A stretch of DNA of 64,000 nucleotides from Gemmatimonadota bacterium (GTDB taxonomy: Bacteria > Gemmatimonadota > Gemmatimonadetes > Gemmatimonadales > Gemmatimonadaceae). The first letter of the stretch is position 1. Each line of letters begins with the position of its first letter. The notes beneath the pieces are model-generated. The model was not told the origin of the DNA and searched no databases. It saw only the letters and a list, made by a program, of their open reading frames with translations. The translations under genes and the position numbers were made by a program. The stretch covers positions 62,001-126,000 of the forward strand of contig JACQBG010000006.1 in assembly GCA_016194585.1 (NCBI GenBank), written 5' to 3'. Below are positions 2,012-58,725 of the stretch, piece by piece.

Positions 2012-3255
2012 TGTCGCGCCGGGTCGTCCTGACGGGTCTCGGGTGTCTCACGCCCGTCGGCAACGACGTGGCGTCGACGTGGGCGGCCATCCTCGCCGGC
2101 AAGTCCGGCGGCGCGCCGATCACGCACTTCGACGCCTCCCAGTTCAAGGCGCGGTTCGCCTGCGAGGTGAAGGGGTTCGACGTGAGCCTCTACATGGACC
2201 GCAAGGAGGCGAAGCGCGCCGACCTCTACACGCAGTTCGCGATGGCGTCGGCGGTGCAGGCGATGCGCGACGCCGGGTTCGGCGACGGCACCGGCTACGA
2301 GAAGGAGCGCACGGGCGTCGTCCTCGGCAGCGGCATCGGCGGCATCACGACGTTCGAGGCGCAGCACGACGTGTTCCGCGAGAACGGCCCGAGCCGCATC
2401 TCGCCCTTCTTCATCCCGATGTTCATCGGTGACATCGCCGCGGGCGTCGTGTCGATGAAGTTCCAGGCGAAGGGTCCGAATTTCTCCCTCCAGTCGGCGT
2501 GCGCCACGAGCGGTCACGCGATCGGGGAGTCGTTCCGGCTCATCCAGTACGGCGACGCCGACGTGATGATCGCCGGCGGGTCGGAGGCGTCGATCACCCC
2601 GATGTCGATCGGCGGTTTCATCAACATGCAGGCGCTCTCCGAGCGGAACGAGTCGCCGGAGACGGCGAGCCGGCCGTTCGACGCGACGCGCGACGGGTTC
2701 GTGATGGGGGAAGGCTCGGGGGCGGTGATCCTCGAGGAGCTGGAGCACGCCCGCCGCCGCGGGGCGCGCATCTACGGCGAGATCGTCGGCTACGGCGCGA
2801 CGGGCGACGCCTACCACCTCACGGGGCAGCCGGAGAACCACGAAGGGCTGCAGCGCGCGATGCGCCGGGCCCTCGAGGACGGCAAGCTCCAGCCGAGCGA
2901 CGTGCAGTACATCAACGCGCACGGCACGAGCACGCCGCTCAACGACCCCAACGAGATCCGCGCCATCAAGGCCGTCTTCGGCGCGCACGCCACCGGGCTG
3001 AACGTGAGCTCGACGAAGAGCGCCACGGGGCACATGCTCGGCGCCGCCGGCGCCGTCGAGGCGGTGTTGACGACCCTGGCGATCGTTCACAACATCGTGC
3101 CGCCGACGATCAACCTCGCGACGATCGACCCGGAGTGCGACCTCGACTGCACGCCCAACGTGCCGGTCAAGCGCGAGGTGAATGCCGCCCTGAGCAACTC
3201 GTCGGGCTTCGGCGGACACAACGTGAGCCTGGCGATCCGGCGCTATCGGGAGTAG
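2011..3255 (+). CDS. fabF: 3-oxoacyl-ACP synthase II
   Basis: Condensing enzyme that joins malonyl-ACP to an acyl-ACP in chain elongation. The 414-residue length is typical of FabF. The Cys-His-His triad of elongating KAS enzymes is present: Cys164 in SACATSG, His304 in NAHGTSTP and His341 in GHMLGAAG. It overlaps acpP by one base, and mqnE begins three bases after the stop, so the fab genes and the menaquinone genes are probably co-transcribed. FabF rather than FabB is the likelier name from the acpP-fabF adjacency and overall length. Confidence 0.95.
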   Translation: MSRRVVLTGLGCLTPVGNDVASTWAAILAGKSGGAPITHFDASQFKARFACEVKGFDVSLYMDRKEAKRADLYTQFAMASAVQAMRDAGFGDGTGYEKERTGVVLGSGIGGITTFEAQHDVFRENGPSRISPFFIPMFIGDIAAGVVSMKFQAKGPNFSLQSACATSGHAIGESFRLIQYGDADVMIAGGSEASITPMSIGGFINMQALSERNESPETASRPFDATRDGFVMGEGSGAVILEELEHARRRGARIYGEIVGYGATGDAYHLTGQPENHEGLQRAMRRALEDGKLQPSDVQYINAHGTSTPLNDPNEIRAIKAVFGAHATGLNVSSTKSATGHMLGAAGAVEAVLTTLAIVHNIVPPTINLATIDPECDLDCTPNVPVKREVNAALSNSSGFGGHNVSLAIRRYRE

Positions 3256-52711: not shown

Positions 52712-53484
52712 ATCGTGGTGCCTCGTCCGCTCGTCTCGATGAAGTCGATCAGCGCCTGCACCTCGGCCGAGGGCTGGAGTTCCTGCCGCGCCTGGTCGAG
52801 GGCCTGCCGCACGTTCAACTCCGAACGGAAGAAGAGCCGGTACGCCTTCTTGAGCTCGGAGACGACCTCCTCGCTGAAGCCGCGTCGCTGCAACCCGACG
52901 CTGTTGAGCCCGTAGAGCTTGATCGGATTGCCGACGGCCTTCACGAACGGCGGCACGTCCTTCGCGACGCGGGACATGCCGCCGATGAACGAGTGCCGCC
53001 CCACCTTCGCGAACTGGTGCACCGCGCACAGGCCGGAGATGATCGCCCACTCCTCGATCGTGACGTGGCCGGCGAGCTGCGTGCCGTTCGACATGATCAC
53101 GTGGTCTCCCACGTGGCAGTCGTGCGCGAGGTGCACGTACGACATGATGAAACAGTGCTGGCCGACGGTCGTCTTCCACGACTGCGACGTGGCGCGGTTG
53201 ATCGTCGCGTACTCGCGGATCGTCGTGTGGTCGCCGATCTCGACGAACGTCTGCTCGCCCTTCCACTTGAGATCCTGCGGCTTGCCGCCGAGGACGCTCC
53301 CGATGCCGATCGTGACGTGCGCCCCCACCGTCACGTTCTCCTCGAGCACCGCCCGCGCCTGCAACACGCTGCCCGCGCCGAGGTGGCAGTTCGGCCCGAC
53401 GATCGCCCACGGCCCGACTTCCGCGTCGGGAGCGATCGTCGCCGTGGGGTCGACGATGGCCGTGGGATGGATGCGCGCGCTCAT
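52708..53484 (-). CDS. lpxA: UDP-N-acetylglucosamine acyltransferase
   Basis: First enzyme of lipid A synthesis, moving a 3-hydroxyacyl chain from ACP to UDP-GlcNAc. The 258-residue protein is a left-handed beta helix of hexapeptide repeats (about 1-185) with the catalytic His121 in HLAHDCHVG and a C-terminal helical part (GLQRRGFS). The ATG overlaps the lpxC-fabZ stop by four bases. The chain-length and sugar-site segment reads GNPIKLYG, unlike the E. coli GNHATPFG. Confidence 0.95.
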   Translation of the reverse strand: MSARIHPTAIVDPTATIAPDAEVGPWAIVGPNCHLGAGSVLQARAVLEENVTVGAHVTIGIGSVLGGKPQDLKWKGEQTFVEIGDHTTIREYATINRATSQSWKTTVGQHCFIMSYVHLAHDCHVGDHVIMSNGTQLAGHVTIEEWAIISGLCAVHQFAKVGRHSFIGGMSRVAKDVPPFVKAVGNPIKLYGLNSVGLQRRGFSEEVVSELKKAYRLFFRSELNVRQALDQARQELQPSAEVQALIDFIETSGRGTTI

Positions 53485-54749
53485 CGATCGCGCACCATGG
53501 CGGCCATCTCGCCCTCGCAGACGACCACGCCGTCGACCTTCGCGACCCCCGAGATGCGGCACACCATGCCGCGCACCTGCAGCATCTCCACCTCGAACCG
53601 GATCTGGTCGCCCGGACGCACCGGCTTGCGGAACTTCACGTTGTCGAGCGACATGAAGTAGACGACCTTCTTCTCCGGGTCGTCCACGCTCCCCATCAGC
53701 AGCATGCCGCCCACCTGGGCCATCGCCTCGACGATCAGCACGCCCGGCATCACCGGGTGCCCGGGAAAGTGCCCCTGGAAGAACGGCTCGTTGACCGTGA
53801 CGTTCTTGATCCCGACGATCCGCTTGTTCTCCTCGATCTCGAGGATCCGGTCCACGAGCAGGAACGGATAGCGGTGCGGGAGCACCTTCATGATGTCTTC
53901 GATGCCGAGCACTTGCTCCTCCCGATGTGCGTGCGCGAGCAATTCGCGCACGAGCGTGACGGTGCCGCGATGACTGGGTCTCGTGGCGACGATCCGCGCG
54001 CGCACCCGCCGTCCGGCGAGCGCGAGGTCTCCCACGCAATCGAGCGCCTTGTGCCGCACGAACTCGTCGTTCCAGCGCAGCGTGTTGTCGACGATGCCCT
54101 CGTCGTCGAGCACCACCGCGTTCGCCGTCGAGGCGCCCTGGATGAGCCCCCGGCCGCGCAGCATCTCCACTTCGCGCATGAACCCGAACGTGCGCGCGCC
54201 GGCCAGCTCCGCCGCGAACGTGGCCGGCGTGACCGTCCACCGCCCGCGCTGCTCCCCGATCACGGGATGCGCGAAGCTGATCGCGACGTCGAGGTCGAGC
54301 GTGTCGGACGGGTACGCCACGTACGTCGACTCGCCGTCGACGACGCGCACGCACTCCTTGATCCGCAGCTCGCGCACGCGCCCGCCGTGCTCGACCGTGC
54401 CGGCGCGCTGGAGCGCCTCGAGGAACGGCCGCGCGCTCCCGTCGAGGATCGGCGGCTCCGCGGCGTCCATCTCCACGAGCACGTCGTCGAGCTCGAGCCC
54501 CGCGATCGCGGCCAGCACGTGCTCGATCGTGTGCAGCCCGCCCTCCCCGTCGCCGAGCTGCGTGCGCCGCTCGCTCAGGATCGCGCGCTCCACGAGCGCC
54601 GGCGTCTCCGGCTGCCCCGCGAGGTCGGTGCGGCGGAACCGCACCCCCGCGTTCACCGGGGCGGGCGCGAACGTCAGGCGGCACTCCCGCCCGAGGTGCA
54701 GCCCGACGCCCGAGAGCGAGACCCGCTCGCGGATCGTCCGCCGGCTCAC
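53481..54749 (-). CDS. lpxC: LpxC-FabZ fusion: lipid A deacetylase and hydroxyacyl-ACP dehydratase
   Basis: A two-enzyme protein of 422 residues. The N-terminal half (about 1-275) is LpxC, the committed deacetylase of lipid A synthesis, with zinc-site residues His77 (HTIEH), His233 and Asp237 ([11 protein letters not shown]). The C-terminal part (about 283-422) is FabZ, the fatty-acid dehydratase, with His327 in [10 protein letters not shown] and Glu341 in VEAMAQ. Such fusions are known in several phyla, Bacteroidota among them. The GTG start overlaps the lpxD stop. Both activities compete for 3-hydroxyacyl-ACP. Confidence 0.94.
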
Positions 54750-55783
54750 ACGCCTTCCTTCGAGAGGAGCCGCTCGATGCGCTTGAGGAGGGCCGGCAGC
54801 TTCATCACCGCCGCCGACGAGCGGAGCGACTCCCGGTGCGGGCGGGCCGGATAGCCGCCCCACGTCTCCCCCGCCGGGATGTCGCTGATCACGCCGCCCT
54901 GCGCGGCGACGCGCGCCATCGCGCCGATCGTCACGTGCCCCGCGACGCCGACCTGCCCGGCGAGGATCACCCCATCCTCGACGCGGACGCTGCCAGCGAT
55001 GCCCACCTGCGACATGATGATGCACAGCCGGCCGATGCGCACGTTGTGGCCGATCTGCGTCAGATTGTCGATCTTCGTGCCGTCGCCGACGACCGTGTCG
55101 TCGATGCTGCCGCGGTCGATCGTCACGTTCGCGCCGATCTCGACGTCGTGCCCGATGACGACCGTGCCGACCTGCGGCACCTTCTGGTGCGCACCGTCGC
55201 GGAAGACGAACCCGAACCCGTCGCCCCCGATCCGCGCGCCGCTGTGCACGATCACGCGGTCGCCGACGGTGACGCCGTCGTGGATCGTCACCTGAGCGAA
55301 CAGCCGCACGTCGTCACCGAGCGTCGCGCCCGCCCCGACGACGCAGTGCGGTCCGATCCACGCGCGTGCGCCCAGCCTCGCCCCGTCCTCGATCACGGCG
55401 TACGGCTCGATGCGCGCGTCGGCCGGCACGTGCGCCGTCGGCGCGACGACGGCGGTCGGGTGCACGCCCGGCACGCGCGATGGCGCGACGTACAACATCT
55501 GGAGGATCGCCGCCAAGGCATCGCCCGGCTTCGGTACGATGACGCGCGCCGCGCACCGCCCGGGCAACTCGGCGAGCTCCGGCGCCACGAGTACGACGCC
55601 CGCCGTCGACTGCGCGAAGACGTCGGAGTACTTCGACGTGCCGAAGAAGCTCACGTCACGCGGGCCGGCTCGGTCGAGGGCCCCCGCCCGGTTCACCACC
55701 ACGCTCCCGTCGCCGACGAGCGTGCCATGCACCGCCGCGGCGATCGCCGCGGCGGTCATCCCCTGGGTCGATCCGGTGGTCAT
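54746..55783 (-). CDS. lpxD: UDP-3-O-acylglucosamine N-acyltransferase
   Basis: Third step of lipid A synthesis: adds the N-linked 3-hydroxyacyl chain. The 345-residue protein has an N-terminal uridine-binding domain (about 1-100, with [11 protein letters not shown]) and a hexapeptide left-handed helix (about 105-310) with catalytic His246 in QIGHNVRIG. The ATG at 55,783 starts MTTGSTQG; a second in-frame ATG is eight codons later, and a longer upstream frame is improbable. It follows ompH after 43 bases. Confidence 0.93.
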
Positions 55784-55826: not shown

Positions 55827-56477
55827 TTACTCGCCGCTCGGCTTCTTGGTGGGCGCGGCCGGCGGCTTGATCCCGGCCGGCGCCGCGATCGGCGCACCCG
55901 CGGGCTTCGCCGGCACCGCCGACTTCGCGGCGATCTTCGGGTTCGGCATCGTCCGCAGCTTCGCGATCACGCGATCGGAGATGTCGAGGTTCTTGTCGGC
56001 CGCCACGATCCCGGCGCCGCCGGCCACGTCGAAGATGAACGTGTAGCCGCCTTCGACGCGGATGTCCTCGAGCACCATCTTGATCTGGTCGAGCAAGGGC
56101 TGCATCAACTCCTGCTCGCGGCGCTGGGCCTGCTGCTCCATCTCGTTCGATCGCGTCTGCGCCTCGGCCTGCCGCTCCTGCAGCGTCTTCGTGCGCGCGT
56201 CCTTCTGCGCCTGCGTGAGCGTCGCCTGCACCTTCTGGAACTCGGCGAACGAGGCGAGCAGCGCGTCGTTCATCTTCTTCGCCGAGTCCTGCAGCACGGC
56301 GAGCTCCTTCTGGAACTGCGAGTCGATCGGCGCGCGGCCGGGCGCGGCGTTCATGATCGCCGAGCTGTTGACGTACGCGAACTTCGGCATCGCGGCCGAG
56401 GTCCCCTGCGCGACGGCGGGCGCCGCGGCGAGAGCGAGGAACGAGACGGCGCCGAGCGCCCGGACGAACGAGGACAT
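55827..56477 (-). CDS. skp: OmpH/Skp-family periplasmic chaperone
   Basis: Periplasmic holdase that keeps outer-membrane proteins soluble on the way to BamA. The 216-residue protein has a signal peptide (about 1-23, AVA-QG), the [10 protein letters not shown] beta segment, a long charged coiled coil (about 50-135) and a [12 protein letters not shown] segment. The C-terminus adds about 40 residues rich in Pro, Ala and Lys, unusual for Skp. It lies between bamA and lpxD, the usual place. Confidence 0.88.
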
Positions 56478-56492
56478 TGGAACTCCGGAGGA

Positions 56493-58725
56493 TTAGTAGA
56501 AGAACTGGCCAAGACGGAAATGCAGCTGCCACTTCGGGTCGGGCTTGCCGAACTGGTCGGTGCGGTCGAACCCGTACGCCCAGTCGATGCCCAGCGGACC
56601 GAGCGGAGAGATCACCGAGGCGCCGATGCCGGCGCCGCGGAAGAGTCGCGTGGGGTTGAAGTCACGCGGCCGCAACCAGAGGTTGCCGGCGTCGTAGAAC
56701 ATGTCGGCGTAGAACTGCTCGCTGAACCGCACGCCGACCTCGGCGGTCGTCGTGAAGAACGTGTTGCCGAACGACGCCCGCGTCGCGTTCGTCTGGCTCG
56801 TCCCGGCGTTGAAGCCGAACGGCGTGATCGAGAACTCGGGGTAGCCGCGCAACGGCTCGCCGTACTGCACGCCGCCGAGCGAGAACGACTGCGAGGCGAA
56901 GAACGGGCCCGGATCGCCGAAGAGGAACCCGGCGCGCTGCGAGATCCCGGCCACGATCTTGATGGGCGAACTGCCGGGCTTGTCGCCGCCGAACTTGCCG
57001 AGCGTCGTGAACGACTTGAACTCCGTCTTGTACCGCTGGAACGAGGCGGTGCCGCCGAGCGGGCCGCCGTTGAATTCCGCGGTGATGCTCTGCAGCGTGC
57101 CGTCGGTCGGGAACGGCAGCTCGATGCGCGTGTCGCGCGTGAGGTCGACGCCGAAGGTCGACCGCAGACATCCGGAGCAGTTGTTCACCGTCACCGTCCC
57201 CAGGAGCCCGCCGTTTCCGTAGCGTCTGGAAGTCGTTGATGTACTGCCCGTACTGCCAGTTGATCTGGCCGCGCTTGCACAACCCGAACAGGTTCGGCTG
57301 GTCGAGTCCGATGAACCCGCCGAGTCCGGTGCCCTGCCCCATCGAGGCGCCGAAGTTCACGTTGCCCGTGCGCTTCTCCTTCACCTTGAAGATCACGTCG
57401 ACGTCGCCCTGGTCGTTCGCCTGGCGCGTCTCCGGCGGGTTCATCTGCTCGAAGAAGCCGAGGTTCTGCACGCTGCGCCAACTGCGGATGAGCGCGTCCT
57501 GGTTGAACACGCCGCCCGGGATGATCACGAGCTGGTCGCGGATGCAGTTCTCGTGCGTGTAGTCGTTGCCGATGATCTCGATGCGGTTCACGATCGCCGG
57601 CGACCCCTCCTGCACGTCCCACCGCAGGTTCACCTTGTCGCCGTCGGGACCGTGCTGCCGGTCGAGGATCGGCCGCACCTGCGCGTAGATGTACCCCTCG
57701 GTGGCGTACGCCTGCCGCACCTTCGACGTCGCGTCGTCCCACTCCGACTGGTCGAACACGTTCTTCACGACCGGCTTGCGCTTGAGCAGCGACTTCAGCC
57801 GCTCCTGCAGCGTCGGCGACGTGTTGTTGAACGGATAGAACCGCGCGATGTCGGCGCTCGAGAACCGCCGGCTCCCCGTCACCTCGAAGGCGCCGACCTT
57901 GTACTGCTTCCCCTCGCTCACCGAGAGGTCGATCAGCCCCTTCCCGCGGTCGCGATCGACGATGATCGTGTCCTTGAGCAGCTGGAAATCGATGTAGCCG
58001 CGATCGAGGAACATCGCCGGCACGCTGTCGCCCACGTCACGGGCGTACTTGTCCTGGTCGAACTCCCCCTTCTGCCAGAACCAGAACCCCTCCGGCTTGG
58101 TCTGCATGGCCTTCGCGATCGACTTCGCGTCGACGGCGGTGTTGCCCCGCACCCGGATGCCCGAGATCGCGAGCCGGCGCCCCTCGTCGATGCGGAACAC
58201 GAGCGACGCGTGGTTGTCGGCGACGAACGTCGTCTCCGGCGTGATCCGCGCGAGCGTGAAGCCGTTCCCCTGGTAGATCGAGTCGATGCGCTGCACCGCT
58301 CGCGCCACCTGCGACGGATCGATCGGGCGCCCGATCAGCAGGTCCACCACGCCGCGCACGTCGCTCGTCGCCACGTTCTTCGTCCCCGCCACGTCGACGA
58401 AGTCCAGCACCGGCCGCTCGCGCACCTTGATGGTGAAGATCGCCACCGGTGGCGTCCCTTCCTTCACCGTGCAGGTGATCGCGATGTCACCCTCGAACTG
58501 CCCCGCGGCGAAGACATTGCGGATCGCCCGCTGCACCGCCGGCGCGTTCAACGGCGTGTGCGGCGCGAGCCCCGCATCGAGGAGGATCGTCGTCGACGGG
58601 ATGCGCTTGTTCCCCGTCACGGCGATCGAGTCGGGAGACACGCAACGCCCGATGGCGTCTTCCTGCGCGGCAAGCGGTGTCACCGCCATCGCCAGGGCGA
58701 AGGCGGCCAACAAGGGTTTCTGCAT
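56493..58725 (-). pseudogene. bamA: BamA outer-membrane assembly factor, interrupted by a frame change
   Basis: Core barrel of the BAM complex. From the ATG at 58,725 (signal peptide about 1-22) the frame encodes the five POTRA domains and the first barrel strands to about residue 501. At 57,222 the family sequence continues one base out of register: NDFQT in the first frame is followed by YGNGGLLGTV in the other, running to the stop at 56,493 and ending in an aromatic FFY, as a barrel should. The joined protein would have about 744 residues. By comparison with E. coli BamA, several strands after NDYQ seem absent, so a stretch of bases may be missing as well as the frame being lost. An ATG at 58,743 is also possible. 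Confidence 0.85.

Follow-up and report, generated by a model that had tools for sequence, protein, structure and literature searches.

The frame change within bamA of a draft Gemmatimonadaceae genome is very probably an assembly error

Results

We analysed a window of 64,000 nucleotides from one contig (C16) of a draft genome of a member of the Gemmatimonadaceae and found that bamA, which lies on the minus strand, is divided between two reading frames. At the point of division a segment that is present in related genes is missing. Sequence comparisons with the relatives make it highly likely that this junction is an error of the assembly.

The first part of bamA (57,226–58,725) begins with a start codon at 58,725 and comprises 500 codons for a signal region, the POTRA domains and the start of the barrel. 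The second part (56,493–57,224) encodes the rest of the barrel in the other frame, with 243 codons followed by a stop codon at 56,495–56,493. Nucleotide alignment with the bamA region of genome G017 (L005) was gapless on both sides of the junction, over 1,535 bases at 88.0% identity upstream (58,760–57,226) and over 821 bases at 85.6% downstream (57,224–56,404). At the junction itself (57,224–57,226) the 192 bases at 3019–3210 of L005 have no counterpart in the window, and base 57,225 of the window has none in L005; the net loss is 191 bases, thus the frame moves by one base. The preliminary description had placed a one-base shift at about 57,222, and while the shift is as described, its position is 2–4 bases off. 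Alignment with a second relative (L006) gave identical breakpoints, and with a third (L007) the upstream breakpoint was again the same and the match resumed 15 bases later. The junction, whose sequence occurs once in the window, cannot be put down to chance, given the length and high identity of the matches of both halves. An exact, frame-shifting deletion between two long colinear flanks argues for an assembly error.

The loss amounts to 64 of 807 residues (501–564 in L005 numbering) in the early barrel. The BamA barrel has sixteen strands, and the lost part would correspond to about three of them, as estimated by length rather than by structure mapping, so the earlier statement that several strands are missing is reasonable. 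Both halves had also been described as BamA, and their long, high-identity matches to L005 bear this out. The N-terminal part matched the POTRA family PF07244 in three stretches with 127.7 bits (cut-off 21.3), and POTRA_1 and POTRA_2 were matched as well. The C-terminal Omp85 barrel is not complete in a single frame in the window. The second half matched Pfam Omp85 (PF01103, 325 positions) from position 99 when the whole frame was used, or from position 113 when read from a GTG at 57,194 that could serve as its own start, whereas the intact L005 protein matched the full 1–325. When L005, which alone was compared and stood in for the window protein, was searched against solved structures the best match was the BamA entry 9n2d (8.3e-42), with many more BamA among the 52 entries.

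Just downstream of bamA on the same strand is an ORF (55,827–56,477) that, from its sequence and the gene order, we take to encode an OmpH/Skp-like periplasmic chaperone; it gave a single unsplit match when compared with genome G006. A further ORF on the minus strand (53,484–54,887) seemingly joins two parts which, from their sequence, are presumably LpxC and FabZ, a joined arrangement that occurs in other phyla. Around bamA promoter-like sites were looked for and none was found; one terminator-like site was found where 1.3 would be expected by chance. We also considered a repeat-mediated deletion and rejected it, since in bases 2700–3600 of L005 no repeat of 10 nucleotides or more connects both breakpoints. 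The repeats in that interval include an inverted pair of 21 nucleotides (71%) that spans the region with its arms off the breakpoints, and a 23-nucleotide inverted repeat (83%) that lies entirely within the missing segment.

The 64-residue missing segment with its edges was used as a query and had no match in any of the 50 contigs of the genome. A positive control came from the other 17 members of the genus, in all of which this query found the segment at least in part; in G012 it is partial and runs into 6 Ns, and in G013 it is split across two contig ends. Alignment to close relatives, which the preliminary description had suggested, showed that L005, L006 and L007 are intact, and the window junction was found in 0 of the 17 genomes. 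That the segment has no match in its own genome yet is present at least in part in every other genus member argues for an assembly error. A different reading of the same data is that a real, recent deletion exists in part of the population, in dying cells or a minority strain, and that the assembler chose it over the intact allele. The clean junction, with no Ns and with colinear flanks, is consistent with this, as is the lack of further frame breaks in the two halves. However, such a deletion would break the frame of a single-copy gene that is essential, no other genus genome shares the junction, and the intact form, although expected to be the majority allele, is unmatched in the assembly. 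We therefore regard a deletion of this kind as very unlikely.

To assess selection on the two halves we compared each with L005. The first half (500 codons) had pS of 0.28, pN of 0.07 and dN/dS of about 0.22, and the second half (243 codons) had pS of 0.39, pN of 0.075 and dN/dS of about 0.14. Both halves are thus under purifying selection, and neither has a further stop or frame break. It follows that bamA either still functions or has only very recently ceased to, and purifying selection on both halves is a further reason to favor an assembly error.

A search of the contigs with the Omp85 profile and with the first 507 residues of bamA did not find the second bamA that had been raised as a possibility. 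The 507-residue query had one match in the genome. The Omp85 profile had three, namely the bamA of the window and one each on contigs C33 and C27. The latter two are full-length ORFs, each followed by a large ORF, and from their sequence and arrangement they look like TamA-TamB pairs, so that we presume them to be TamA-like and TamB-like; these Omp85 genes are distant paralogs of bamA. Among 61 genomes searched with the 507-residue query, 60 had exactly one strong match (E of 1e-52 or better) and G048 had a weak match only. The lack of a second bamA here together with the single strong match in these 60 genomes supports an assembly error. One draft, G118, carries two bamA barrels on two contigs (L070 and L082); it is listed with 6% contamination, and the two barrels represent either contamination or a second copy. 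This counts against an assembly error, as it is one apparent instance of a second bamA among the genomes surveyed.

The two further Omp85 ORFs also bear on whether the loss could be fixed, such that a broken or two-part BamA suffices for the organism, perhaps with aid from these proteins. A second half that could start at the GTG at 57,194 would fit such an arrangement. We consider it extremely improbable. About three barrel strands would be gone, and the other Omp85 proteins are TamA-like, next to TamB-like ORFs, if the names that we gave them are right. In addition, several of the relatives have weak extra matches, with open frames of comparable length, alongside their bamA. Finally, of the 179 genomes from the family 166 had a barrel match, including all 105 with a completeness of 90% or more and a contamination of 5% or less.

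We then compared the ORFs of the contig with genome G006. At about 43,916 and 47,600 of C16, outside the window, ORFs that we take to be nuoG and nuoL both contain a one-base frame change, in each case at a run of G. Of the other 17 genomes in the genus, 16 have nuoL in a single piece and 16 nuoG; the exceptions are G010, with nuoL divided between two contigs, and G011, where only a 65-residue end piece of nuoG was seen. A frame split like those on C16 was not seen for either gene in these 17 genomes. The nuoG and nuoL breaks are likely sequencing or consensus errors, and their presence on the same contig argues for an error in bamA too. Among the 138 ORFs kept on C16 four were split, namely bamA, nuoG, nuoL and one of 154 amino acids on the minus strand (C16:11,804–12,263), probably a shadow ORF. 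Within the window, where 64 ORFs were compared, a division between frames was seen in no gene but bamA. This counts against an assembly error, since it indicates that the window is not generally error-rich. Four of the 64 had multiple matches; one was bamA, and in the other three the additional matches are paralogs. The ORFs at 56,450 and 56,713 are readings over the second half of bamA, and a few others may be shadow ORFs.

To determine how often bamA is broken in the family we surveyed 179 genomes, of which 166 had a match to the barrel and 166 to the POTRA region, with 13 lacking a match in each case. Breaks were counted from the full match counts per genome and by re-examining 15 genomes for the barrel and 13 for the POTRA region with extra, weak or partial matches; the counts are lower bounds, as breaks in genomes with one match may have escaped. 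We found same-contig breaks in the early barrel in at least 4 of 166 genomes (G000, G012, G025 and G186), compared with at least 1 of 166 (G172, 10 Ns) in a POTRA segment of equal length that served as the control. The break in G012 consists of 6 Ns and that in G186 of Ns with a frame change. In G025 (L044, about 881–896) there is a clean join with a frame change and a loss of about 50 barrel residues, at a site that differs from that in the window. The other partial barrel matches were at or near contig ends, apart from a weak match of 84 residues in G073 that was taken as a paralog, and all partial POTRA matches except that of G172 were likewise at or near contig ends. In G013 (L014 and L045) bamA is on two contigs with an overlap of exactly 141 bases, suggestive of the k-mer of an assembler at a branch that it did not resolve. 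G024 (L042, contig C302) has an in-frame TGA close to where the last POTRA domain ends, in a bamA that is otherwise unbroken. The unrelated bamA faults in other drafts (G025, G012, G186 and G013) are again in line with an assembly error.

These counts allow us to ask whether strain variation in the early barrel forms a recurrent hot spot and breaks assemblies across the family. Such a hot spot would be a cause of the error and not an alternative to it. The higher number of breaks in the early barrel than in the POTRA segment points in this direction, but four against one is a small difference. Contig ends within bamA were about as common as expected, with at least 5 seen (G011, G013, G025, G040 and G058) where rounded contig counts for 61 genomes predict about 7.4 for a gene of this length. 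Furthermore, the segment is about as conserved within the genus as the N-terminal part. A hot spot is therefore unlikely, and breaks in bamA are about as frequent as the background would predict, the early barrel having a slight surplus at most.

Discussion

Our data show that the junction in bamA is real as a feature of the assembly, but the organism itself very probably does not have it. The organism would most likely have an ordinary, intact, single-copy bamA of which the draft skips about 191 bases. Possible sources of such an error include chimeric reads, strain bubbles, and faults in gap filling or in a long-read consensus. A mis-joined or collapsed assembly had already been offered as the simplest explanation in the preliminary description, and the lack of a match to the segment and of a second bamA in the genome, the uniqueness of the junction and the breaks in nuoG and nuoL all lend it support. 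Against it stands the consideration that de Bruijn assembly does not normally yield a junction unless some of the input sequence includes it.

That an essential gene present as a single copy has truly suffered a deletion is very unlikely. It is likewise highly improbable that in a natural population some cells harbor a genuine deletion, out of frame and about three barrel strands long, in the one bamA that they have. If they did, an essential machine for outer-membrane assembly would be missing from these cells, or would work while split and shortened. A real deletion would also raise the question of how far the BamA barrel can be shortened. The deletion is very probably not a real feature of this organism, and an estimated completeness of 98% together with long contigs is evidently still compatible with out-of-frame errors in core genes. 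Gene loss should thus not be read from this assembly without the reads.

Like known BamA proteins of the Omp85 superfamily (PF07244, PF01103), the product of the window gene has POTRA domains and a barrel, and no second copy was found in the genome. The gene adjoins genes that we presume to be OmpH/Skp-like, lpxD-like and clpC-like. Unlike BamA, and unlike the intact genes of L005, L006 and L007, the copy in the window as assembled is without 64 barrel residues and changes frame. With regard to the mis-joins and indel errors of draft metagenome assemblies, a loss of 191 bases exceeds what homopolymer errors usually produce and is atypical of them, which counts against an assembly error. In the other respects the window resembles such drafts, with colinear flanks around an out-of-frame join in a core gene and with other one-base frame breaks at runs of G on the same contig.
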